A stretch of DNA of 35,124 bases from a candidate division Zixibacteria bacterium HGW-Zixibacteria-1 (GTDB lineage Bacteria > Zixibacteria > MSB-5A5 > GN15 > PGXB01): positions 1 to 35,124 of the forward strand of contig PGXB01000039.1 of the NCBI GenBank assembly GCA_002838945.1. The letters run 5' to 3'. The position numbers and the translations under genes were made by a program. Below the pieces are notes generated by a model, which was not told the DNA's origin, made no database searches, and saw nothing but the letters and a program-made list of their open reading frames with translations. Of the stretch, positions 21,342 to 32,885 are shown in pieces. Position 1 is the stretch's first letter; every line of letters starts with the position of its first letter.

Positions 21342-22406
21342 CTATGCTCTAAAATCGACTTTTGCCGCGTTCCGGCGCCAATAATAAATTGAGGTTGCCG
21401 CTATTAATATTAGAAGAATCATCAGGATCAGTCCACCGGTACGTGACAGGAAAGGAACTCTTTCCCTTATTGGTATAAATTCGACATAGTTTGGCGACTG
21501 CCCCACATAAGAGCAGCCGTATTCAATCCGCATGTAGCCGTCCTCGCCCCATCCGGTTCCCCAGGAATTACGAATTATCCATATCCCATTTGTCCCCTGC
21601 CTGTCATCCCAGCCGACAATGTTGACGGTATGGTTGACCATCGAATCATTACAGGCATTGAAAACTCCGCCGGTATAGGCCCGGAACGGATCATTTACGA
21701 AAATCGAGACGCATATCGGGCCATAATCCAGAATGGCCTGCTTCATGGCCTCGATCGACGGATTGAATAAGTCATCGCCGATATAACTCCAGCGATGGAT
21801 GGTATAGGGGTGAGTATGTTCTCCATTGCAGTAACCTTCTTCCTCCAGGTAGGGGAAATCTTCCTCCGGGACGGCACCGTAATGCCCGCATTTGCCGACC
21901 TTCCATTGATGGTAGTCATGAGCGTAATAACCGCCGTAACAGCCCCACATATGAGTGTTGCAGTCGATCAGCCATTGTTCGGATAAATCAACCGACAGGC
22001 CGAATCGACGCTTGATGGCCGATTCGAGAGGTGCGATAGTGGCGAAGGCCCAGCAACTGCCGCATCCACCCTGATCCCTTATGGGCGTCAGGGCATCGCT
22101 TGACCGCCAGTCGAAACTGACGGGCAGACTTCGTGTCGGTGTGCAGGAATCAAACGGAGCCATATCCATCCAGTCGGGCGGCGTTACCAGACCGCACAGT
22201 TGTTCCATCGATAACTGCGTGGCCGGGTTCAGCCCGACACTGAATGTCCAGCCTTCCTGCAATCCCTGCTTATGCAATTCCTCGATATCCGAAGCGCTTA
22301 TCTGTGCCATCGGGGAGGCGGCCGAGGCGGCAATATATATTAAGAAGGAAATGGTAATAATGGCAAGATTCTTTTTGGTTCCTGAAAGTCCCGCAATGCA
22401 AGGCAT
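21342..22406 (-). CDS. Papain-family (C1A) protease with C-terminal sorting/anchor segment
   Basis: A 354-residue exported cysteine protease. Signal peptide to about residue 34 (ending SPMAQ), a short propeptide, then the mature domain. Q112 and C118 lie in RDQGGCGSCWAF, H259 in NHTVNIVGWDD and N280 in IRNSWGTGWGEDGY, so the catalytic set is complete. Residues about 317-346 are VPFLSRTGG, a 20-residue hydrophobic run and YYWRRN. This resembles the IPTL-CTERM/PEP-CTERM class of C-terminal sorting signals: a Pro-containing motif, a membrane span and a basic tail. The mature protease may thus be anchored and then processed at the envelope. ATG 22406 has GGAGGGAG upstream. Convergent with the MFS gene. 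Confidence 0.9.
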   Translation of the reverse strand: MPCIAGLSGTKKNLAIITISFLIYIAASAASPMAQISASDIEELHKQGLQEGWTFSVGLNPATQLSMEQLCGLVTPPDWMDMAPFDSCTPTRSLPVSFDWRSSDALTPIRDQGGCGSCWAFATIAPLESAIKRRFGLSVDLSEQWLIDCNTHMWGCYGGYYAHDYHQWKVGKCGHYGAVPEEDFPYLEEEGYCNGEHTHPYTIHRWSYIGDDLFNPSIEAMKQAILDYGPICVSIFVNDPFRAYTGGVFNACNDSMVNHTVNIVGWDDRQGTNGIWIIRNSWGTGWGEDGYMRIEYGCSYVGQSPNYVEFIPIRERVPFLSRTGGLILMILLILIAATSIYYWRRNAAKVDFRA

Positions 22407-22838: not shown

Positions 22839-22880
22839 TCTTGTTTAGGCCGGGAAAATCGGTAGGAGTTGACAAAGGAT

Positions 22881-23234
22881 ATGAGCGAGTACTTATCGGT
22901 TTTGATCTTTCTGATGGTTGGGATAGGAATAGTCCTCTTTACCTTTTTCTTTGCCCGGCTGATTCGGCCCCATAATCCTTATAAAGCCAAAAATCAAACT
23001 TATGAATGTGCCGAGACCCCGATCGGGAATTCGTGGGTTAAGTTCAACAACCGCTTCTACATATTTGCGCTGATTTTTGTCGTTTTCGATGTTGAAGCGA
23101 TCTTTCTCTTCCCGTGGGCGGTGGCTTTCGGTCAATTGGGGCTGTTTGCCCTGATAGAAATGATAATCTTTATTGCTATTTTGATTTTCGGGCTTTACTA
23201 TGCGTGGAGGAAGGGGGCGCTTAAATGGGTATAA
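22881..23234 (+). CDS. nuoA: NADH-quinone oxidoreductase subunit A
   Basis: The 117-residue membrane subunit of complex I next to the quinone site. It has three hydrophobic segments and the conserved [10 protein letters not shown] and [18 protein letters not shown] stretches with the buried acidic residues. A TTG in the same frame at 22869 abuts the GGAG site, so ATG 22881, with AGGAG twelve bases upstream, is preferred. First gene of an 11-gene operon; overlaps nuoB by ten bases. Confidence 0.96.
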
Positions 23235-23731
23235 TAAAGAAAGTTCCGGTATATTTGGAAAAAATCCCGGGTGGAGGTCTGATAACCACCAGCCTGGATT
23301 CCATTTTCAGTTACTCGCAGGCCAGTTCACTCTGGTATTTGCTATTCGGAACCGCCTGTTGCGCCATTGAGTTGATGGCCACCGGCGCATCCCGTTATGA
23401 TTTTGACCGGTTGGGCATGATTTTCCGCGCCTCGCCGCGCCAGTCCGACCTGATAATCGCGGCCGGGACCATTACCAAGAAAATGGGCCCAAGATTACGG
23501 CTGCTTTATGATCAGATGGCCGAGCCGAAGTATGTCATCGCCATGGGGGGATGCACGATCGGCGGCGGCCCGTTTTATTATGACAGCTATGCGGTTGAGA
23601 AGGGAATCGATCATATTGTGCCGGTTGATGTTTATATCCCCGGCTGCCCGCCGCGGCCGGAATCGCTTCTGGAAGGCTGTTTGACCCTGCAGAAGAAGGT
23701 CAAGAAACTGAAAATCCAGGATTGGAGTTAA
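23225..23731 (+). CDS. nuoB: NADH-quinone oxidoreductase subunit B
   Basis: The 168-residue Q-module subunit that binds terminal cluster N2. Its four ligands are visible: C45 and C46 ([10 protein letters not shown]), C110 (MGGCTIGGG) and C141 (IPGCPPRPE). Peripheral, on the cytosolic side. Coupled to nuoA by a ten-base overlap. Confidence 0.97.
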
Positions 23732-23742
23732 AGTTTTTTGTT

Positions 23743-24216
23743 ATGAACCGTGACGAACTTGCCAAATATCTCCTCGAAAAATTTCAGGATAAAATAGAGC
23801 CTCTCCAAACCGGCAAAGCCGAACCGTTTTTCCTGCTGAAAAAACCGGAAGATCTGGTCGATTTCTGCCGGGCCGTCAGGGATGACACTACCCTGCGGAT
23901 GGATTATCTGTGCATGATGTGCGGTGTCGATACCGGTGAGCATTTTGAAGTCGTGTATTCGCTGGCCTCGATCAAAAATCGTCTCAGATTCGATTTCAAA
24001 TTCCCGCTTCCTTTTGAAAACGCCGAGATCGATTCGGTGCAGGAAGTCTGGGCCGGGGCCAACTGGTTTGAGAGGGAAGTCTGGGAGCTTTACGGAATAA
24101 ATGTCAGGAATCATGGCAACCTGACGCGGTTTCTGCTTCCCGATGACTGGAATCAGGGACATCCGATGCGCAAGAATTGGGACGCGCCCGATTTCAAACG
24201 GATGCCCGAGGTGTAA
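23743..24216 (+). CDS. nuoC: NADH-quinone oxidoreductase subunit C
   Basis: The 157-residue (30 kDa-type) Q-module subunit, separate from NuoD rather than fused. The signature is VWAGANWFEREVWELYGI near residue 108, followed by RFLLPDDWNQGHPMRKNW. A TTG at 23722 in the same frame would overlap nuoB and add seven residues; ATG 23743 is chosen as the family-like start, with GGAG 15 bases away. The start is therefore uncertain. Confidence 0.93.
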   Translation: MNRDELAKYLLEKFQDKIEPLQTGKAEPFFLLKKPEDLVDFCRAVRDDTTLRMDYLCMMCGVDTGEHFEVVYSLASIKNRLRFDFKFPLPFENAEIDSVQEVWAGANWFEREVWELYGINVRNHGNLTRFLLPDDWNQGHPMRKNWDAPDFKRMPEV

Positions 24217-24219
24217 GAT

Positions 24220-25329
24220 ATGGCGGATTTGCGGACAGAAGAATTTATAGTCAACATGGGGCCGCATCACCCCTCGACACATGGTGTCTGCCGCTTTATG
24301 CTCACCATGGATGGTGAGAAAATTGTCAAAGCGGAACCGGTCATAGGCTATCTGCATCGTGCCCTTGAGAAAATTTGCGAAAACCGCACCTATGCCCAGT
24401 GTATCCCGGTTCTGGATCGGTTCGAGTATTGCACGGCGATGTCCTGTAATCAGGTCTTTTCACTGGCGGTGGAAAAACTGGCCGGTATTCAGGTTCCCGA
24501 GCGCGCCGAGCATCTGCGCGTAATCATGCTGGAACTCAACCGAATTGCCAGCCACCTGATCTGGCTGGGGACAACCTCACTTGATCTGGGCGCCCTGACG
24601 CCGTTTTTGTATGCCTTCCGTGAGCGGGAAAGTATTCTTGACCTGTTTGAAATGACCTGCGGGCAGAGGTTGACATTCAATTATATAAGAATCGGTGGTG
24701 TTTCCAAAGATATCCCGCCGCAGTTTATTCCGGGAGCCAGGCAATTTCTATCAACCTTCGATCATAAAGTTGATGACTACGAAAGAGTTCTGACCGAGAA
24801 CCCGATCTTTATGGCCCGCAACCAGAATGTCGGCGTGATGTCGTCCGAACTGGCCCTGGCCTATGGTGTCTCCGGCCCCAATCTGCGCGCTTCGGGCATT
24901 AAGTTCGATCTTCGCAAAGATGATACCTATTCGATATATAATCGTTTCAAATTCGATATTCCCACCGGACAAAATGGTGATTGTTATGATCGATACATGG
25001 TCCGGATCAGGGAAATGCGTGAATCGGCCAAAATAGTCAGGCAGGCACTCGATGCGCTTCCCGAGGGTGACATCTCCGCCAAGTTCAGTCCGATTACATT
25101 CAAGGCCCCGGCCGGCGAATTGTACAGCCGGATCGAAAATTCCCGCGGAGAAATGGGCGTTTATCTGCAGTCTCAGGATAAAGAGAAAAAGCCGCTTCGG
25201 GTCAAGCTTCGCGGGAGTTCCTTCAATCATCTCCAGGTTATGCCGGAGCTGGTACGAGGACACCTGATTGCCGATGTGGTGGCGGTCATGGCTTCGATGG
25301 ATATAATTTTGCCGGATGTGGATAGATAA
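24220..25329 (+). CDS. nuoD: NADH-quinone oxidoreductase subunit D
   Basis: The 369-residue (49 kDa-type) subunit that lines the quinone pocket with NuoB. It opens with the conserved NMGPHHPSTHGV, which holds the quinone-site His, then GYLHRALEKICENRTYAQ and the C-terminal DVVAVMASMDIILPDVDR. Three bases after nuoC; its TAA shares one base with the nuoH ATG. Confidence 0.97.
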   Translation: MADLRTEEFIVNMGPHHPSTHGVCRFMLTMDGEKIVKAEPVIGYLHRALEKICENRTYAQCIPVLDRFEYCTAMSCNQVFSLAVEKLAGIQVPERAEHLRVIMLELNRIASHLIWLGTTSLDLGALTPFLYAFRERESILDLFEMTCGQRLTFNYIRIGGVSKDIPPQFIPGARQFLSTFDHKVDDYERVLTENPIFMARNQNVGVMSSELALAYGVSGPNLRASGIKFDLRKDDTYSIYNRFKFDIPTGQNGDCYDRYMVRIREMRESAKIVRQALDALPEGDISAKFSPITFKAPAGELYSRIENSRGEMGVYLQSQDKEKKPLRVKLRGSSFNHLQVMPELVRGHLIADVVAVMASMDIILPDVDR

Positions 25330-26372
25330 TGGAAATTACTGGAATATTTAAGTATCTGTATGAATTGCTGGCCGGAACCGGCCTGCCTCAGGTTCTGGTC
25401 GATATAATCGCGCTGATCTTTGCCGCGGTGGTCGTTTTTGGTTTTCTCTGCGTGGTGGCTCTTTTCCTGGTCTGGTGGGAGAGAAAAGTTTCGGCGCATT
25501 TCCAGCAGCGGCTGGGTCCGATGCGGACCGGCTGGCATGGCTGGAGACAGACGGTGCATGACGCCGTCAAATTATTGCAGAAAGAGGATATTACCCCGAC
25601 GGCGGTTGATCGGTATGTCTTTTATTGGGCGCCGATTATGTGTTTTGTGGCCGCTTTCATGGCCTATATTGTCATCCCGTTCGGCGATGGCCTGATAGTT
25701 GCCGACCTCAACATCGGGATTTTATTTGTCCTGGCCATCACCACTTTCACCATTATATCGCTTCTGATGGCCGGATGGGGCTCCAACAACAAATATGCTT
25801 TATTGGGCGGGATGCGGTCGGCGGCGCAGGTGGTCAGTTATGAGGTACCGATGGTGGTTTCGGTCCTGGCCGTGATTGTTTTTGTCGGGTCGCTGTCGAT
25901 GGTCGATATCGTCCAGTCGCAGGCCCAGATATATCAATGGTACATTTTCCGCCTGCCGTTCGGCCCGATTGCCTTCATTACCTATATTATCGCCGCCACG
26001 GCCGAAACCAACCGGACACCTTTTGATATTCCCGAGGCCGAGCAGGAGCTGGTGGCCGGATTCAACATCGAGTATTCCGGCATGAAGTTCGCCATGTTTT
26101 TCCTGGCGGAGTTCGTCAATATGTTTACCGTTTCGGCCATCGGTGCGACGCTCTTTTTCGGCGGCTGGCAGGGCCCGCTGCTTCCGTCATGGATGTGGTT
26201 CATGATTAAAACCCTGGCGCTCGTGTTTGTCCTGATGTGGTTCCGCTGGACATTCCCGCGGCTTCGGGTGGATCAATTGATGGAGTTTTCATGGAAGTTC
26301 CTTCTTCCGGTTTCATTTATAAATCTCATTCTGGCCGGGTTTATGAAATACTCGGGGTGGTTCAGCTGGTGA
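25329..26372 (+). CDS. nuoH: NADH-quinone oxidoreductase subunit H
   Basis: The 347-residue membrane subunit that joins the Q-module to the proton-pumping arm. Conserved landmarks are WWERKVSAHFQQRLGPMRTG, AETNRTPFDIPEAEQELVAG with its quinone-channel acidic residues, and FVLMWFRWTFPRLRVDQLM. About eight membrane helices. Its TGA overlaps the GTG of nuoI. Confidence 0.97.
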   Translation: MEITGIFKYLYELLAGTGLPQVLVDIIALIFAAVVVFGFLCVVALFLVWWERKVSAHFQQRLGPMRTGWHGWRQTVHDAVKLLQKEDITPTAVDRYVFYWAPIMCFVAAFMAYIVIPFGDGLIVADLNIGILFVLAITTFTIISLLMAGWGSNNKYALLGGMRSAAQVVSYEVPMVVSVLAVIVFVGSLSMVDIVQSQAQIYQWYIFRLPFGPIAFITYIIAATAETNRTPFDIPEAEQELVAGFNIEYSGMKFAMFFLAEFVNMFTVSAIGATLFFGGWQGPLLPSWMWFMIKTLALVFVLMWFRWTFPRLRVDQLMEFSWKFLLPVSFINLILAGFMKYSGWFSW

Positions 26373-26992
26373 GAAAAGTATTCAACGGCATAAAGAACCT
26401 GCTGATCGGCATGGCGACGACTGCCAAACATCTTGGCCGGCATAATGTATGCGTCCAGTATCCGACCGAGAAATGGACCATGCCCGAAAGATCGCGCGGG
26501 GTAGTGGTGCTGCTTTCCGACCAGGAAACCGGCGAACTGAATTGTACTGTCTGCATGCTGTGCGCCCGGTCCTGCCCGACAGCGGCCATTAATATTGTTA
26601 ATCACAAGGATGAGGCCACCAAAAAGCGGGTGCTTGATGATTTTATCGTCGATTATAATCTCTGCTGTTTCTGCGGCTTGTGCGAAGAGGCCTGCAACTT
26701 TGCGGCCATTAAAATGGCGCCGAAGTATGAATTCTCGTCATGGAACAAGGAAGATATGACCTGGCACAAGGATAAGCTTCAGGAAATCGGCCGTGATGTG
26801 CCGTATGAAAAGCCGGAGCGCAAGAAGCCGGCTCCCAAACCGGCGGCGCCGAAGCCCGCCGATACGACATCCGAAAAATCGCAGGCGACTGCGGCCAACC
26901 CGAACTCGACCGAGCCAAAGACTGAACCGGATGCAAATGATGAGAAAAAACCGGAAAGCACTGACAAGGAAGGCGGGGAGGAGCAGAAGTAA
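26369..26992 (+). CDS. nuoI: NADH-quinone oxidoreductase subunit I with long charged C-terminal tail
   Basis: A 207-residue Q-module ferredoxin-like subunit carrying clusters N6a and N6b. One set is C59, C62, C65, C69 (CTVCMLCARSCP). The second is C99, C102, C105, C109 (CCFCGLCEEACN). After residue about 148 comes a low-complexity tail of some 60 residues, rich in Pro, Lys, Ala then Glu and Asp, that ordinary NuoI lacks. Frame-compatible codons exist upstream inside nuoH, but GTG 26369, overlapping the nuoH stop (GTGA), gives the normal N-terminus. The tail might dock a partner; that is inference. Confidence 0.94.
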   Translation: MRKVFNGIKNLLIGMATTAKHLGRHNVCVQYPTEKWTMPERSRGVVVLLSDQETGELNCTVCMLCARSCPTAAINIVNHKDEATKKRVLDDFIVDYNLCCFCGLCEEACNFAAIKMAPKYEFSSWNKEDMTWHKDKLQEIGRDVPYEKPERKKPAPKPAAPKPADTTSEKSQATAANPNSTEPKTEPDANDEKKPESTDKEGGEEQK

Positions 26993-27516
26993 TGGACTTT
27001 CTTACGAACTTCATTGATGCTGTCGCTTCTCAACCGGTGTTTTACCTGCTGTCACTGGCGATGATAATATCGGCGCTGATGGTGGTGACGCTGAGAAATA
27101 TCTTTCACTGTGCCATATTTTTGATAATGACGCTGTTTTGCGTGGCCGGTATATACATCTTATTAAATGCGGAATTTCTGGCCGCCGTACAGGTGCTTAT
27201 TTATGTCGGGGCGGTGTCGGTTCTGATGATCTTTGCCATCATGTTAACATCGCAGCTGACTTCGGTAAAAATCCAGCAAACCAATGAACAGGTGACGGCG
27301 GCGGGCCTGATAGCGATTGCATTTCTGGGCGCTTCTATGTATGCCATGCTCCGGACCAAATGGAATCTTGGTGAAGTGACACTGCCGGAAAATAATATTA
27401 TGTCGCTCGGCAAGCTCCTGATGACCGATTTCGTGCTGCCGTTCGAAGTCGTTTCGGTGCTTCTGCTGGCCGCGCTTATCGGAGCGGTGGTTCTGGCAAG
27501 AAGGGAGAGTTCCTGA
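26992..27516 (+). CDS. nuoJ: NADH-quinone oxidoreductase subunit J
   Basis: The 174-residue membrane subunit with five hydrophobic segments and the family core IFHCAIFLIMTLFCVAGIY and VQVLIYVGAVSVLMIFAIML, the pi-bulge helix region. ATG overlaps the nuoI TAA by one base. Confidence 0.95.
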   Translation: MDFLTNFIDAVASQPVFYLLSLAMIISALMVVTLRNIFHCAIFLIMTLFCVAGIYILLNAEFLAAVQVLIYVGAVSVLMIFAIMLTSQLTSVKIQQTNEQVTAAGLIAIAFLGASMYAMLRTKWNLGEVTLPENNIMSLGKLLMTDFVLPFEVVSVLLLAALIGAVVLARRESS

Positions 27517-27517
27517 T

Positions 27518-27823
27518 ATGGGCAGCTATATAGCACTTGCCGGGGTCCTGTTCGCCATCGGCATTTTCGGCGTCCTGACGCGCCGCAATGCCATCGGGAT
27601 CCTGATGTCGCTTGAATTGATGTTCAACGCCGTGAATATAAATTTTGTCGCGTTCAATAAATACATTGCTACCTGCAATGGAACCCTGACCGGTCAGATA
27701 TTTGCCATTTTCGTGGTTGTGGTGGCCGCCGCGGAAGCCGTAGTGGGACTGGCCATAGTGCTACTGATTTACCGCAACTGGAAGGGTATCGAAGTCGACC
27801 GGATTAATGTCATGAAGTGGTAA
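27518..27823 (+). CDS. nuoK: NADH-quinone oxidoreductase subunit K
   Basis: A 101-residue, three-helix membrane subunit. It shows LTRRNAIGILMSLELMFNAV, with its conserved membrane Glu, and VAAAEAVVGLAIVLLIYRN with the second Glu of the proton path. One base after nuoJ. Confidence 0.96.
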   Translation: MGSYIALAGVLFAIGIFGVLTRRNAIGILMSLELMFNAVNINFVAFNKYIATCNGTLTGQIFAIFVVVVAAAEAVVGLAIVLLIYRNWKGIEVDRINVMKW

Positions 27824-27824
27824 T

Positions 27825-29891
27825 ATGCTGGAAAATGCTTTTATAATACCGTTCTATCCGCTCTTTGCGTTCGTGATGATTATCTTCGTCACGCGCTGGA
27901 AGGAAAAGTTGTCGTCGTATCTCTCGATCGGCATGATCCTGATTGCGCTGGCTCATTCGATCGGTGTCCTGATTCAGATGATCGGCCGTCACGGCGAACC
28001 ACTGGAAATGTCCATCCCGTTCATCACTCTGCCGTCGCTTCATCTTGAGCTGGGCGCCTGGTTCGATCCGCTCACGGCGGTGATGCTGGTGGTGGTGACG
28101 ACGGTTTCGAGCTGCGTGCAGATTTATTCGCTCGGGTATATGCACGGTGACCCGCGCTGGAGCCGGTATTTTTCGTATCTGTCGCTGTTTACGTTTTCCA
28201 TGCTCGGCCTGGTGATTGCCAATAACTTTTTCATGATATTCATCTTCTGGGAACTGGTCGGACTTACCAGCTATCTGTTGATCGGTTTCTGGTTCGAGAA
28301 GAAGTCGGCTTCCGATGCCGGCAAAAAAGCATTTATCACGACTCGCATCGGCGATCTTGGTTTTATCGTCGGCCTGCTAATGTTGGGCCTGTATGCCGGA
28401 ACTTTCAATTACCAGGAAGTCTTCAGCATCGTCAAGTCCGGGACACTATCGCCCGCGATTCTGGGCGCGGCCGGTGTCTTAATCTTCTGCGGCGCGGTCG
28501 GCAAGTCGGCCCAGTTTCCGCTGCATGTGTGGCTGCCTGATGCTATGGAGGGCCCGACCCCGGTTTCGGCTTTGATCCATGCCGCCACCATGGTTGCGGC
28601 CGGTGTTTATCTGGTCGCCCGGGCAATGACATTATTTGCGGCTTCGGGAACCGCCTCGATGGTGGTGGCCGTAATCGGCCTGATCACCTCCTTTATGGCG
28701 GCGACCATTGCCCTGACACAATTCGATATTAAACGGGTGCTGGCTTATTCGACGGTCAGCCAGCTGGGATATATGATTATGGCGCTGGGGCTGTATGGTT
28801 ATGATACATATAATCACCATCACACCCCCGGGTTCTATGCCGGGACATTTCATTTGATGACCCACGCTTTCTTCAAGGCGCTGCTGTTCCTCGGAGCCGG
28901 ATCGGTGATACATGCCGTGCACACCAATGACATCCGCGAAATGGGCGGATTATTCGGCAAAATGAAAATCACCGCGATTACGTTTATTGTGGCCTCGCTG
29001 TCGATTGCCGGGATATTCCCGTTGTCGGGATTCTGGTCCAAGGATGAAATCGTGGCGGCCACAAGCGCGCACCCGGTCTTTATGGTGTTTACACTGGCGA
29101 TTGCCTTCATGACTGCTTTCTATATGTTCCGCCTCTGCTTCATGACCTTCACCGGCAAACCCCGCGACCAGCATCGTTACGATCATGCTCATGAGTCGCC
29201 GAAGTCGATGACGGTGCCGTTGATGTTTCTCGGATTTCTTTCGGTTTTCGCCGGCTGGGTCGGACTTCCCTGGCTGGGTCATGGTTTCGCATCTTTCGTT
29301 TTTCACGGCGAAGCTTATCATCCGCACGCCAACTACCCGTTGATGCTGATATCGACAGTTGTGGCCGTTTCCGGAATCGGTCTGGCTTATGCCATGTATT
29401 ATAAGAAAGCTATTTCGCCGGATGCCATCGTCGAAAAATTCAAACCGCTGTACACTCTGCTTTACAATAAATATTACTTTGATGAGCTTTATGATATAAT
29501 CCTTATCAGGCCGATTCTCGGTCTGACCAATGTACTGTGGTGGTTCGATGCCAATGTCATCGACGGACTCGTGAACTTCGCCGGATGGATAACGATCAAG
29601 TGGGCCGATGTCAAGATGTGGTTCGACAAATGGATTATCGATGGTGCCGTCAACGGCACCGGGCACGTCTGCATGTTTTTCTCATGGTTGTTCCGTTACA
29701 TACAAAGCGGTTCCTTCCAATTCTACACATTGGTGATAATAGGGGCCGCCCTTGAAATAATGCTGTTCAGAGTTTCGTTATGGGCTTTTTATATACTGCT
29801 GGCGGCCGTCATCCTACTGGCGCTGCTCCGTCTGGCAATTAAGACAAACCGTTCCGGCAGGGTTAAGGCGGAACCGAATATAGAAGCTTAG
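27825..29891 (+). CDS. nuoL: NADH-quinone oxidoreductase subunit L
   Basis: The 688-residue antiporter-like subunit at the tip of the membrane arm. It has FWELVGLTSYLLIGFWF, the proton-channel segment VGKSAQFPLHVWLPDAMEGP, VLAYSTVSQLGYM, and a long C-terminal amphipathic region ending in a last membrane helix, as for the lateral helix. Full length. A His-rich loop (YNHHHTPGFY) lies before the conserved HLMTHAFFKALLFL helix. One base after nuoK. Confidence 0.97.
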   Translation: MLENAFIIPFYPLFAFVMIIFVTRWKEKLSSYLSIGMILIALAHSIGVLIQMIGRHGEPLEMSIPFITLPSLHLELGAWFDPLTAVMLVVVTTVSSCVQIYSLGYMHGDPRWSRYFSYLSLFTFSMLGLVIANNFFMIFIFWELVGLTSYLLIGFWFEKKSASDAGKKAFITTRIGDLGFIVGLLMLGLYAGTFNYQEVFSIVKSGTLSPAILGAAGVLIFCGAVGKSAQFPLHVWLPDAMEGPTPVSALIHAATMVAAGVYLVARAMTLFAASGTASMVVAVIGLITSFMAATIALTQFDIKRVLAYSTVSQLGYMIMALGLYGYDTYNHHHTPGFYAGTFHLMTHAFFKALLFLGAGSVIHAVHTNDIREMGGLFGKMKITAITFIVASLSIAGIFPLSGFWSKDEIVAATSAHPVFMVFTLAIAFMTAFYMFRLCFMTFTGKPRDQHRYDHAHESPKSMTVPLMFLGFLSVFAGWVGLPWLGHGFASFVFHGEAYHPHANYPLMLISTVVAVSGIGLAYAMYYKKAISPDAIVEKFKPLYTLLYNKYYFDELYDIILIRPILGLTNVLWWFDANVIDGLVNFAGWITIKWADVKMWFDKWIIDGAVNGTGHVCMFFSWLFRYIQSGSFQFYTLVIIGAALEIMLFRVSLWAFYILLAAVILLALLRLAIKTNRSGRVKAEPNIEA

Positions 29892-29907
29892 GAGGAAAGA
29901 GAAAGTC

Positions 29908-31410
29908 ATGAATTTCCCGATATTAACTTACATGATATTCATCCCGCTGTTCGGCTTTATAGCGGTGATGTTTCTGCCCAAGGAAAAGCACTGGTTGATC
30001 AGATGGACCTCGGCGGCTTTCTCATTCATTCCCATGCTCCTGTCTTTTTACCTGACCTATCTTTACTATTTCAACTTTTCCAGTTCGGCCGACATGGTTT
30101 TTGCCGAGGGACCGTTCGACTGGATCGCGCCGATTAACGCGCAGTACTATCTGGGTGTCGATGGAATCTCGGTACCGATGTTGTTCCTGACCGGGTTATT
30201 ATCGTTTATTTCGATTCTGGCCTCATTTAACATTGCCAAACGGGTCAAGGAATATTTTTCGTTTTTCCTCCTGCTCGAGGCGGGCATGATGGGCGTCTTT
30301 TGCGCCCTTGATTTCTTCCTCTTTTATGTTTTCTGGGAAGTCATGCTGGTGCCGATGTACTTCCTGATCGGTGTCTGGGGCGGGCCCAGAAAAGAATATG
30401 CGGCGATCAAGTTCTTCTTATATACATTGTTCGGGTCGATATTCATGCTGGTGGCGATTCTGGTGCTGTATTTCACCAGCGATCCGCACACCCTGAACAT
30501 GATGGAACTGATACAGCAGGTGCCGGGAGGCATGGGGCACTCGCTGCAGTTGATGTGTTTCGTCTTCCTGTTTGTGGCCTTCGCCATCAAGGTTCCGGTC
30601 TGGCCGTTCCATACATGGTTGCCCGATGCTCATGTCGAGGCGCCGACCGCCGTTTCGGTCATCCTTGCCGGTGTCCTGCTTAAGATGGGGACGTATGGTA
30701 TGCTGAGAGTTTCCTGGCCGATGTTCCCGGAAGCTACCCGGTATTTTGCCATCCCGATTGCCATCCTCGGTTTGATAGCCATTATCTATGGCGCGCTGGT
30801 ATCGATGGCGCAGAAAGATCTCAAGAAGCTGGTCGCCTATTCGTCGGTTTCGCATATGGGTTACTGCATGCTGGCTCTGGGCGCATATTCCTCGGTAACC
30901 GCGATTTCAGGCTGTATGTTTCAGATGTTCAGCCACGGTTTGATCACCGGGGCGCTGTTCCTTTTGGTCGGCGTTCTTTATGATAGAGCGCATACCCGCG
31001 AAATTGCCGCTTTCGGAGGACTCGGTTCCAAGCTGCCGGTATATACCGGTTTGATGGTGCTGTTCTCGATGGCCTCACTCGGCTTGCCGGGAATGTCCGG
31101 TTTTGTTTCCGAGTTCATGGTTTTTATCGGTGCTTTCACCGCTCCGGCGCCCGATCTGACCATCTACACCGCCCTCGCGGTTCTGGGTGTGGTACTGACC
31201 GCAGGCTACATGCTGCGAATGGTGCAGAAAGTTTTTCTGGGTGAGTTTAACTCCGAGAAATGGGCCGGCTTGACCGATATCAATGTTCGGGAAGTTATCA
31301 CGGTGGCGCCGCTTGCATTTCTGACGATTCTGATCGGGGTTTATCCTTCACCCCTTACCAATATTATGAAAGCAACCCTGGAGAACCTGGTTAACCTGAT
31401 GGCTCGATAG
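29908..31410 (+). CDS. nuoM: NADH-quinone oxidoreductase subunit M
   Basis: A 500-residue antiporter-like proton-pumping subunit with FWEVMLVPMYFLIGVWGG, AIKVPVWPFHTWLPDAHVEA, KKLVAYSSVSHMGYCML and MFSHGLITGALFLLVG. Some 14 membrane helices expected. AGGAGG lies before the ATG, unlike the coupled genes upstream. Confidence 0.97.
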   Translation: MNFPILTYMIFIPLFGFIAVMFLPKEKHWLIRWTSAAFSFIPMLLSFYLTYLYYFNFSSSADMVFAEGPFDWIAPINAQYYLGVDGISVPMLFLTGLLSFISILASFNIAKRVKEYFSFFLLLEAGMMGVFCALDFFLFYVFWEVMLVPMYFLIGVWGGPRKEYAAIKFFLYTLFGSIFMLVAILVLYFTSDPHTLNMMELIQQVPGGMGHSLQLMCFVFLFVAFAIKVPVWPFHTWLPDAHVEAPTAVSVILAGVLLKMGTYGMLRVSWPMFPEATRYFAIPIAILGLIAIIYGALVSMAQKDLKKLVAYSSVSHMGYCMLALGAYSSVTAISGCMFQMFSHGLITGALFLLVGVLYDRAHTREIAAFGGLGSKLPVYTGLMVLFSMASLGLPGMSGFVSEFMVFIGAFTAPAPDLTIYTALAVLGVVLTAGYMLRMVQKVFLGEFNSEKWAGLTDINVREVITVAPLAFLTILIGVYPSPLTNIMKATLENLVNLMAR

Positions 31411-31421
31411 GAATTGAGATT

Positions 31422-32885
31422 ATGCCAGATTACAATTTGAAATTGATTATTCCGGAAGTATTCCTCTTTCTCTGGGCGCTTTTTATTATTGCCTTTGACC
31501 TCGGGACCAAACGCAAGAATACCAAACTGATCGGATACCTCGCCATGGGCGGCTTGGCTATCACCGGGATCCTGCTTTACCTGTATCAGGGCGGTATTAC
31601 CTTCAACAATATGTTTAAGTCTGATTCGGTGGCGACATTTTTCAAAATTATCTTTCTCGGTTCCTCATTTATGGCCATCGGCTCCTCGTTTGATATCGCT
31701 TCCACCAAAATCCGCAATCATCGGGGCGAATTTTTCGGCCTGATTCTTTTTTCCACGGTGGGGATGATGTTCCTGGCTTCGGCCGGAGAACTTATTTCGC
31801 TTTATATCGGACTGGAATTGACGACCATCCCGCTTTATGTCCTGACGGCGTTTTATAAAGATGACCGGATTTCGGTTGAAGCCGGACTGAAGTATTTGAT
31901 TGTCGGCGCGTTTTCATCGGCCATCCTGCTCTATGGCCTGTCATTGCTTTACGGCCTGTCCGGAACCACCGATATCCTGATGATGAAAATCAATCTTTCG
32001 TTGCTTTTTTTGAATACAAATGGAATCGGCTGGGCGCCGCTGATGGCGATGATTATGGTTCTGGCCGGGATCGGCTTCAAACTGGCGCTGGTGCCGTTTC
32101 ACATGTGGGCGCCCGATGTCTACCAGGGAGCTCCGACTCCCATTACCGCCATGCTTTCGGTCGGTTCCAAGGCGGCCGGGGTGGTGGCTTTTTTGAGAAT
32201 TTTTGTCGATGGTCTTTATGGTTTTTCGGATGCCGTCATGGAGCCGCTTGACTGGGGCATTATTGTCGCTATCCTGGCTTCGGCGGGTATGATACTCGGC
32301 AATATTACCGCTTTGCGGCAGAAAAATATCAAGCGGATGCTGGCCTATTCGTCAATCGCCCAGATCGGCTATGTGATGGTCGGTATGGTGGCGGTCTCGA
32401 AACTCGGTGTCGGCGCGGTCGGTTATTACATGTTTGTTTATCTTTTCGCCAATATGGGCGCCTTTGCCGTGGCGACGGTTTTCAATGACAAAACCGGCTC
32501 CGACAGTATCGCCAGTTATGCCGGCCTGTCGAAAACGTCCCCGATGATTTCCGCCTTTATGGCCATTTTCCTTTTGTCTCTTGCCGGTATTCCCCCGTTG
32601 GCCGGATTTGCCGCCAAATATTTTGTTTTTGCCGCCGGTATTCAGGCCGGATATACCTGGCTGGTGATTCTGGCGCTTCTGACCGCAGTCGTTTCACTTT
32701 ACTATTATGCCAATGTCATAAAAATGATGTATTTCGCTCCGGAAAACCCGGCCATTAAAGTTAATCCGCCTCTTTCCGCCAATATCGTTCTAATTCTCGG
32801 CGTCGCCGGTCTTATAATATTCGGCGTGTTTCCCGGACCAATTTTGAAATTTGCCCTTGACATGGCCCGAGTCTTTGGCTTTTAA
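31422..32885 (+). CDS. nuoN: NADH-quinone oxidoreductase subunit N
   Basis: A 487-residue antiporter-like subunit, last gene of the operon. Motifs: YIGLELTTIPLYVLTAF, LALVPFHMWAPDVYQGAPTP, IKRMLAYSSIAQIGYVMVG and SLAGIPPLAGFAAKYFVF. No nuoE, nuoF or nuoG follows, and no obvious terminator is visible in the 116 bases before the next gene. Confidence 0.97.
   Translation: MPDYNLKLIIPEVFLFLWALFIIAFDLGTKRKNTKLIGYLAMGGLAITGILLYLYQGGITFNNMFKSDSVATFFKIIFLGSSFMAIGSSFDIASTKIRNHRGEFFGLILFSTVGMMFLASAGELISLYIGLELTTIPLYVLTAFYKDDRISVEAGLKYLIVGAFSSAILLYGLSLLYGLSGTTDILMMKINLSLLFLNTNGIGWAPLMAMIMVLAGIGFKLALVPFHMWAPDVYQGAPTPITAMLSVGSKAAGVVAFLRIFVDGLYGFSDAVMEPLDWGIIVAILASAGMILGNITALRQKNIKRMLAYSSIAQIGYVMVGMVAVSKLGVGAVGYYMFVYLFANMGAFAVATVFNDKTGSDSIASYAGLSKTSPMISAFMAIFLLSLAGIPPLAGFAAKYFVFAAGIQAGYTWLVILALLTAVVSLYYYANVIKMMYFAPENPAIKVNPPLSANIVLILGVAGLIIFGVFPGPILKFALDMARVFGF

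Follow-up and report, generated by a model that had tools for sequence, protein, structure and literature searches.

In the phylum Zixibacteria, the NuoI subunit of an 11-subunit complex I carries, in most lineages, a C-terminal tail. On the trees made, the tail has a single origin, which it shares with a change in the second cluster motif. The tail, the altered motif and a conserved tail root are one package at the electron-entry subunit, and this is the stronger result of the analysis. Our best, still tentative, reading of this package is a complex I that is fed by ferredoxin and whose electron-entry face was remodelled, with the tail recruiting the donor there. All claims on the tail and the motif are confined to the Zixibacteria phylum.

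The operon under study lies in a 35,124-nt stretch of DNA (the window), where nuoABCDHIJKLMN occupies positions 22869-32885 of the forward strand (the nuoA start is approximate). Subunits A, B, C, D, H, I, J, K, L and M match NCBIfam models, nuoN matches the Pfam model Proton_antipo_M, and the operon order was confirmed by gene order, which places all genes of an 11-subunit complex I within one operon. No match to nuoE, nuoF or nuoG was found inside the window, and the best NuoF and NuoG of the genome both sit on contig C53. This contig carries a complete 14-subunit nuoA-N operon, whose NuoI is 159 aa long, lacks a tail and is 36% identical to the NuoI of the window over the aligned part. Therefore, the NADH module is missing from the 11-subunit complex, not from the cell, and its predicted absence holds for the operon but not for the genome. 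Upstream of the nuo operon, on the opposite strand, lies a gene for a papain-family cysteine protease (21342-22406). A search with NuoI returned three named relatives, two labelled Zixibacteria and one Ignavibacterium. A scan of viral contigs found no relative, and the plasmid matches (149 records, the genera listed being Proteobacteria, with 20 further genera beyond the list) were all below 60% identity.

The NuoI ORF (26369-26989, forward strand as are all NuoI features below) encodes 207 aa, and its C-terminal end is well fixed because the TAA stop codon overlaps the ATG of nuoJ. The core with its two 4Fe-4S motifs, C59-P70 and C99-N110, spans 26369-26800; it was recognized by TIGR01971 (E 1.4e-30, 105.3 bits, a score below the cut-off of 113.05), by AlphaFold2 (pLDDT 91-98 at residues 51-120) and by structure superposition on NuoI chains of complex I such as that of E. 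coli (7awt_I; Z 14.5, rmsd 2.8, 106 residues aligned), in which model residues 40-149 match residues 39-148 of the E. coli chain. The tail follows residue 144 and comprises the last 63 residues (26801-26989), with 11 Pro, 11 Lys, 10 Glu and 8 Ala, and a net charge of +3 over the first 31 residues and -5 over the last 32. The translated ORF thus bears out the original prediction of a Lys/Pro/Ala-rich and then Glu/Asp-rich end, for which the range 26810-26989 had been given, exactly the last 60 codons. By alignment, the tail has a conserved root (26795-26827), D143 V144 x Y146 followed by a Lys/Arg cluster; D143, V144 and Y146 are kept in at least 90% of a 55-sequence alignment, and at least two Lys or Arg occur among the first 10 tail residues in all 86 tails that could be read in the phylum. 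The distal part (26828-26989) is of low complexity, acidic toward its end and, from pLDDT and composition, predicted to be disordered: the pLDDT is 83-89 at residues 141-160, 66 at 161-170 and 50-57 beyond, and the tail is modelled with no secondary structure.

Such an end is rare among neighbouring ORFs. A low-complexity last 40-mer rich in Lys, Pro, Ala and Glu was found in 62 of 72 NuoI ORFs of the lineage, versus 2 of 699 other ORFs of at least 150 aa from the same DNA stretches; one of these two is a run of N, as are the two matches among other Nuo ORFs. The idea that the tail is a house style of these genomes was therefore rejected. A frame artefact was likewise rejected, since the same kind of tail is carried by 86 of the 95 readable copies of the lineage.

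The NuoI lineage of the window was detected in 97 of 132 genomes sampled from the phylum (E<=1e-30), many of them fragmented MAGs. The set studied comprised 97 copies from 96 genomes, the copy of genome G054, cut by a contig end, having been left out, and 95 copies from 94 genomes had a readable end. Tail length in the 86 tailed copies ranges from 25 to 126 aa with a median of 62 (one tail, in G123, includes 21 unknown bases). The nine tail-less copies all belong to families f11, f16 and f17 and end 2-8 residues past the aligned core. Two tailed NuoI copies occur in one genome (G055:C1, L060 and L061), and in one of the two operons only D-H-I-J-K-L were recognized.

The original prediction also proposed a check, whether presence of the tail tracks absence of nuoEFG. 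Where 9 or more of the 11 core genes could be seen, NuoI is tailed in 49 of 56 operons without nuoEFG, versus 1 of 23 with E, F or G genes nearby. The single tailed operon of the second group (G036) has bifurcating-type EFG-like genes nearby, not a canonical NADH module; the other 22 are complete 14-subunit operons, none of which has the tail. The counts leave aside the cut copy of G002 and 47 copies for which fewer of the core genes were in view (of the lineage of the window, 37 with a tail and 3 without; of the other lineage, 7). The seven tail-less operons without nuoEFG are six of the lineage of the window and that of G094, an unrelated 11-subunit operon whose NuoI groups with the other lineage. 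This other lineage is represented by 30 copies, 22 from the complete 14-subunit operons and eight odd or incomplete (two each from G094 and G089, one each from G080, G063, G007 and G005). A further complex I-like locus, in G063 (C77, L116), has E, F and G with a divergent NuoI of a different kind. The expected association is thus real as a correlation; however, it rests on one event and has exceptions. Close relatives that lack nuoEFG and yet have no tail, which the original prediction had named as evidence against itself, do exist in the nine copies of f11, f16 and f17. The tail as a direct result of the absence of the N-module was accordingly rejected, since tail-less 11-subunit operons exist. 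Because both these relatives and G094 lack nuoEFG and the tail alike, the tail follows one later event rather than the absence of the N-module. A gene-by-gene inspection of one tail-less operon, that of G086, revealed no obvious small separate gene standing in for the tail.

The single origin is seen in a tree of NuoH and NuoD from 119 operons, rooted at the midpoint with no outside phylum. One clade, with a support of 1.0, holds 84 copies, namely 83 tailed ones and that of G002, in which a contig end interrupts NuoI. Its sister is a tail-less clade containing eight of the nine such copies (support 0.993; 0.942 for the joint node). Most simply, the 11-subunit form is older than the tail; one loss of the tail in the tail-less clade is a less simple alternative.

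The sequence of the tail varies from copy to copy, but its charge order, a basic root and a more acidic end, is conserved. In all 86 tails, charge is more positive in the first half than in the second; first halves are net positive in 81 of 86 and second halves net negative in 84 of 86. Mean tail polarity is 0.216, compared with a mean of 0.000 (sd 0.014) in shuffles. With the first 12 residues removed, 78 of 86 tails keep a positive polarity; with the first 20 removed, 58 of 83 do, and the mean of 0.035 lies less than 2 sd from the shuffles. The tails are not basic as a whole, their mean net charge being -0.7 (86 tails). Since the order is nearly lost past residue 20, what the tails keep is a basic root that leads into an arm of mixed and slightly acidic character. 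These results bear on the view that the tail is a lineage-specific disordered extension with no specific role beyond, for example, solubility or crowding, under a mild constraint on composition. Little sequence conservation beyond the root, a five-fold variation in length and the fading of the charge order would fit such an extension; however, the tail is found in all 83 clade members on the tree with a readable or partly readable end, no tail departs from the charge order, and hardly any other ORF of these DNA stretches has such an end. We consider this explanation improbable.

The second cluster motif of the window NuoI, CCFCGLCEEACN (residues 99-110, 26663-26698), has an extra cysteine, Cys100, and Asn110 in place of proline, and the motif of the tailed copies is CCxCxxCxxxCN, changed from CIxCxxCxxxCP. 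Among the 86 tailed copies with a scorable motif, C100 is found in 83 (Ala in the other three) and N110 in all, whereas the nine tail-less copies of the lineage all have Ile and Pro at the two places; as this split was defined by tail length, the pairing of tail and motif speaks for one shared origin and says nothing of function. Pro stands at the second place in all 30 copies of the other lineage, one of which (G089) has Cys at the first. The tailed NuoI of G005 (L045:9825-10490) was left out of the motif scoring because its fourth cysteine reads Phe (CQESFNF); this genome is a single contig of 83% completeness, so that a base error is possible. In the usual 2[4Fe-4S] pattern, the fourth cysteine of a motif ligates the other cluster; the surroundings of both clusters may therefore have changed in the tailed NuoI.

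All 11 subunits were scanned for residues shared by 93% or more of the tailed copies, missing from the tail-less ones and found in no more than 10% of copies of the other lineage. The scan gave nine such clade-specific fixed positions: C100, N110, D143 and V144 of NuoI, 112 of NuoA, 100 and 162 of NuoH, and 288 and 473 of NuoM. NuoI is the richest of the 11 subunits with four of the nine, a count limited by the fact that D143 and V144 belong to the tail root, a part in which the tail-less copies are largely gapped. In addition, the loop that links the two cluster motifs (26579-26662, residues 71-98) has a mean net charge of +0.49 in the 86 tailed copies, -0.44 in the nine tail-less 11-subunit copies and -2.67 in the 30 of the other lineage. 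This is the region where cyanobacterial NdhI contacts ferredoxin. According to the available parts of the reports on photosynthetic NDH-1, ferredoxin sits on a basic patch formed by the NdhI loop and NdhH (PMC6992706, PMC7021789), and Lys86, Lys89 and Lys91 of NdhI lie in the contact region (PMC7021789); the NuoI loop is likened to it by region and net charge, not residue by residue.

The position of the root raises the main rival to donor recruitment, a structural cap. Here the root would pack over the face that the missing NADH module leaves uncovered and stabilize or shield the clusters, the rest of the tail being filler, by analogy with the ordered NuoI extension of E. coli and with accessory subunits elsewhere. 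In the part of PMC8357420 available, E. coli NuoI residues 139-180 contact NuoG, NuoE, NuoB, NuoF and NuoD, and the extension overlaps the places of Nqo15 and NDUFS6. Together with the superposition described above, these contacts make it probable that the root begins at this uncovered face. The cap is also favoured by the conservation of the root and by its pLDDT, which stays at 83-89 up to residue 160. However, most of the tail is of low complexity, predicted to be disordered and 25-126 aa in length, which is unlike an ordered capping segment, and the tail-less sister clade manages without it. A cap appears somewhat unlikely to us, and the most likely role of the tail is donor recruitment at the entry face.

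For the 11-subunit enzyme the donor has been called an open question, with ferredoxin proposed (PMC11238625), and complexes I without an N-module and with ferredoxin as the likely donor have been published (PMC11238625, PMC3534657, PMC6349859; available parts of each). In another family of the same class, the tail-less G094 has porCDAB-like genes (L109:2713-5980, G094:C1) that overlap each other and end 1 base before the ATG of nuoA, which opens an 11-subunit operon (L109:5982-15541) whose NuoI has no such tail. The four genes encode a 2-oxoacid:ferredoxin oxidoreductase in the order gamma, delta ferredoxin, alpha and beta, the gamma subunit carrying a fused receiver-like domain whose score is slightly below the Pfam cut-off. 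By its gene content the locus looks like one 2-oxoacid:ferredoxin:quinone operon, and its lack of a tail suggests that a ferredoxin-fed complex needs none. A second arrangement is found directly upstream of the tailed nuoA of G036 (C53, L077:13610-19859), where genes for a ferredoxin, Kor/Por A, B and C, E', F', G' and a HycB-like protein lie on the same strand as nuoA with a gap of about 270 bases. The genome of the window has the same eight genes in the same order at G000:C2 (L173:2941-9135), 58-75% identical to those of G036. An acidic ferredoxin (65-aa frame) is encoded at G000:C2:165187-165318. Kor is used here as a label only, since Pfam assigns the POR family. F' (617 aa) has the Cys motifs and Pfam domains of BfuB, with an N-terminal 2Fe-2S and a C-terminal 2x4Fe-4S, and is encoded beside POR genes. 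The Bfu family comprises Por-Bfu and Nuo-Bfu, of which Nuo-Bfu couples its module to complex I (PMC9304861, available part). The Kor-E'F'G' cluster has the characters by which Por-Bfu is recognized, bifurcation itself being predicted.

Matches to POR gamma at E<=1e-35 in genomes of at least 90% completeness from families f1-f4 were found in 39 of 39 with the tailed complex and in 0 of 8 without; at 85% completeness or more the figures are 45 of 45 and 2 of 11, and with no completeness limit 64 of 64 and 5 of 16, all being hand tallies that depend on a cut set after the data had been seen. At E 1e-15, the threshold of the search itself, weaker matches (5e-32 to 8e-33) appear in G016, G019, G026 and G056, half of the eight that lack the complex, and the other four (G023, G028, G032 and G073) have none. 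On a 44-taxon tree of the 14-subunit operon, rooted at G086 with no outside phylum, the eight fall into four groups: G016 with G019; G023 with G032 and G073 (and G066); G026 with G028; and G056. All eight keep a NuoF above the curated cut-off. Within the order of f1-f4, loss of the complex accompanies loss of strong POR matches; in families f5 and f19, POR genes are present and the 11-subunit complex is absent. The gene neighbourhoods suggest that the 11-subunit form is fed by ferredoxin-making enzymes. Gene context thus independently strengthens the case for ferredoxin as the putative donor, evidence which concerns the complex as a whole and not the NuoI tail. No input gene was found beside the tailed operon in all genomes, the largest neighbour groups reaching 40 of 96 genomes. 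These are DUF502-like and CBS/PTS-EIIA-like proteins, so assigned by Pfam for the window's own members; further large groups, named by eye, are an exchanger-like protein and cytochrome b, Rieske and cytochrome c genes.

The G036 arrangement could mean that the tail is a docking arm for a particular partner, such as the HycB-like protein or the G' subunit of the Kor-bifurcating cluster. In formate hydrogenlyase, HycB joins formate dehydrogenase to the NuoI homologue, and the HycB-like protein matches HycB of that enzyme (7z0s_B, E 2.7e-20). Among the matches listed, which reach to about E 1e-29, G' at 50% identity or more (a cut set after the list had been seen) occurs in 66 of the 88 genomes that have the tailed complex and in none of the 9 that have the tail-less one. 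Of the genomes with neither, 7 of 32 have it, in a hand tally of 32 of the 35 such genomes that left out G127, G128 and G131. The seven are MAGs of 350-720 contigs, so that a complex may have been missed in them; taken as they stand, they speak against such an arm. So does the absence of the cluster from 22 of the 88 tailed-complex genomes, including all 14 of f6, f7, f13 and f18, and for this reason a general tie between the tail and the Kor-E'F'G' cluster was rejected. Moreover, the cluster adjoins the tailed operon in one genome only, whereas G' and the NuoF of the 14-subunit operon share a contig, about 17-38 kb apart, in at least 12 f4 genomes; the cluster may therefore serve the 14-subunit complex instead. 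A dedicated partner of this kind seems quite improbable, the least probable of the explanations considered here.

Under the preferred reading, donor recruitment at a remodelled entry face, the 11-subunit complex I would be supplied with electrons by ferredoxin, or by a 2-oxoacid oxidoreductase through its ferredoxin-type subunit, and would pass them through the two NuoI clusters to NuoB and quinone, with proton pumping. NuoI would have been remodelled once, after the NADH module was already absent from the complex, by an extra cysteine and a Pro-to-Asn change next to the cluster ligands and by a C-terminal tail starting where the E. coli extension toward the NADH module begins. The conserved basic root, beside the exposed entry cluster, would attract an acidic donor, and the disordered, partly acidic remainder may act as a tether and a weak electrostatic competitor, so that the donor comes and goes. 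We infer that ferredoxin or an input protein would be bound by the tail itself, as the original prediction had suggested, and likewise we infer the identity of the donor, the quinone, the position of the root and the cluster potentials. A fuller version, in which the Zixibacteria enzyme is a ferredoxin- or OFOR-docking complex I with retuned clusters (CC..CN) and a charge-ordered disordered arm that catches an OFOR or its ferredoxin, would be rather unlikely to hold as a whole.

If the docking reading is true, the complex would be a 2-oxoacid-to-quinone proton pump without NADH. The phylum offers a natural series, with 14-subunit, tail-less 11-subunit, and tailed 11-subunit forms with the altered motif, which includes loci that place a 2-oxoacid:ferredoxin oxidoreductase before nuoA and thereby names candidate donors. 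It also holds two small sequence changes whose effect could be measured, in an enzyme type, the complex I without an N-module, for which the available part of PMC11238625 treats the donor as an open question. In the literature searched, which was covered in part, neither the NuoI tail nor the CC/CN motif was found, and either may be in print.

The Zixibacteria form shares nuoABCDHIJKLMN without nuoEFG, and ferredoxin as the proposed donor, with the 11-subunit complex I described earlier (PMC11238625, PMC3534657); the available parts of those reports do not describe the tail or the CC/CN motif, and in Zixibacteria a 14-subunit paralogue coexists. The C-terminal extension of E. coli NuoI has the same starting point in the NuoI fold as the tail; however, it is ordered and touches the NADH module (PMC8357420, available part), whereas the distal tail has a low pLDDT. 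The Kor/Por and E'F'G' cluster shares extra Fe-S motifs of the BfuB type with the Bfu family, but, in contrast to Nuo-Bfu as presented in the available part of PMC9304861, the Bfu-like module of Zixibacteria lies apart from the 11-subunit nuo operon and adjoins it only in G036. In photosynthetic NDH-1, docking involves the basic NdhI loop, NdhH and extra small subunits, with no charged NuoI tail named in the parts of PMC6992706 and PMC7021789 available. Like the Zixibacteria form, this complex has no NADH module, and there ferredoxin delivers electrons to the NuoI homologue (PMC6992706, PMC7021789).
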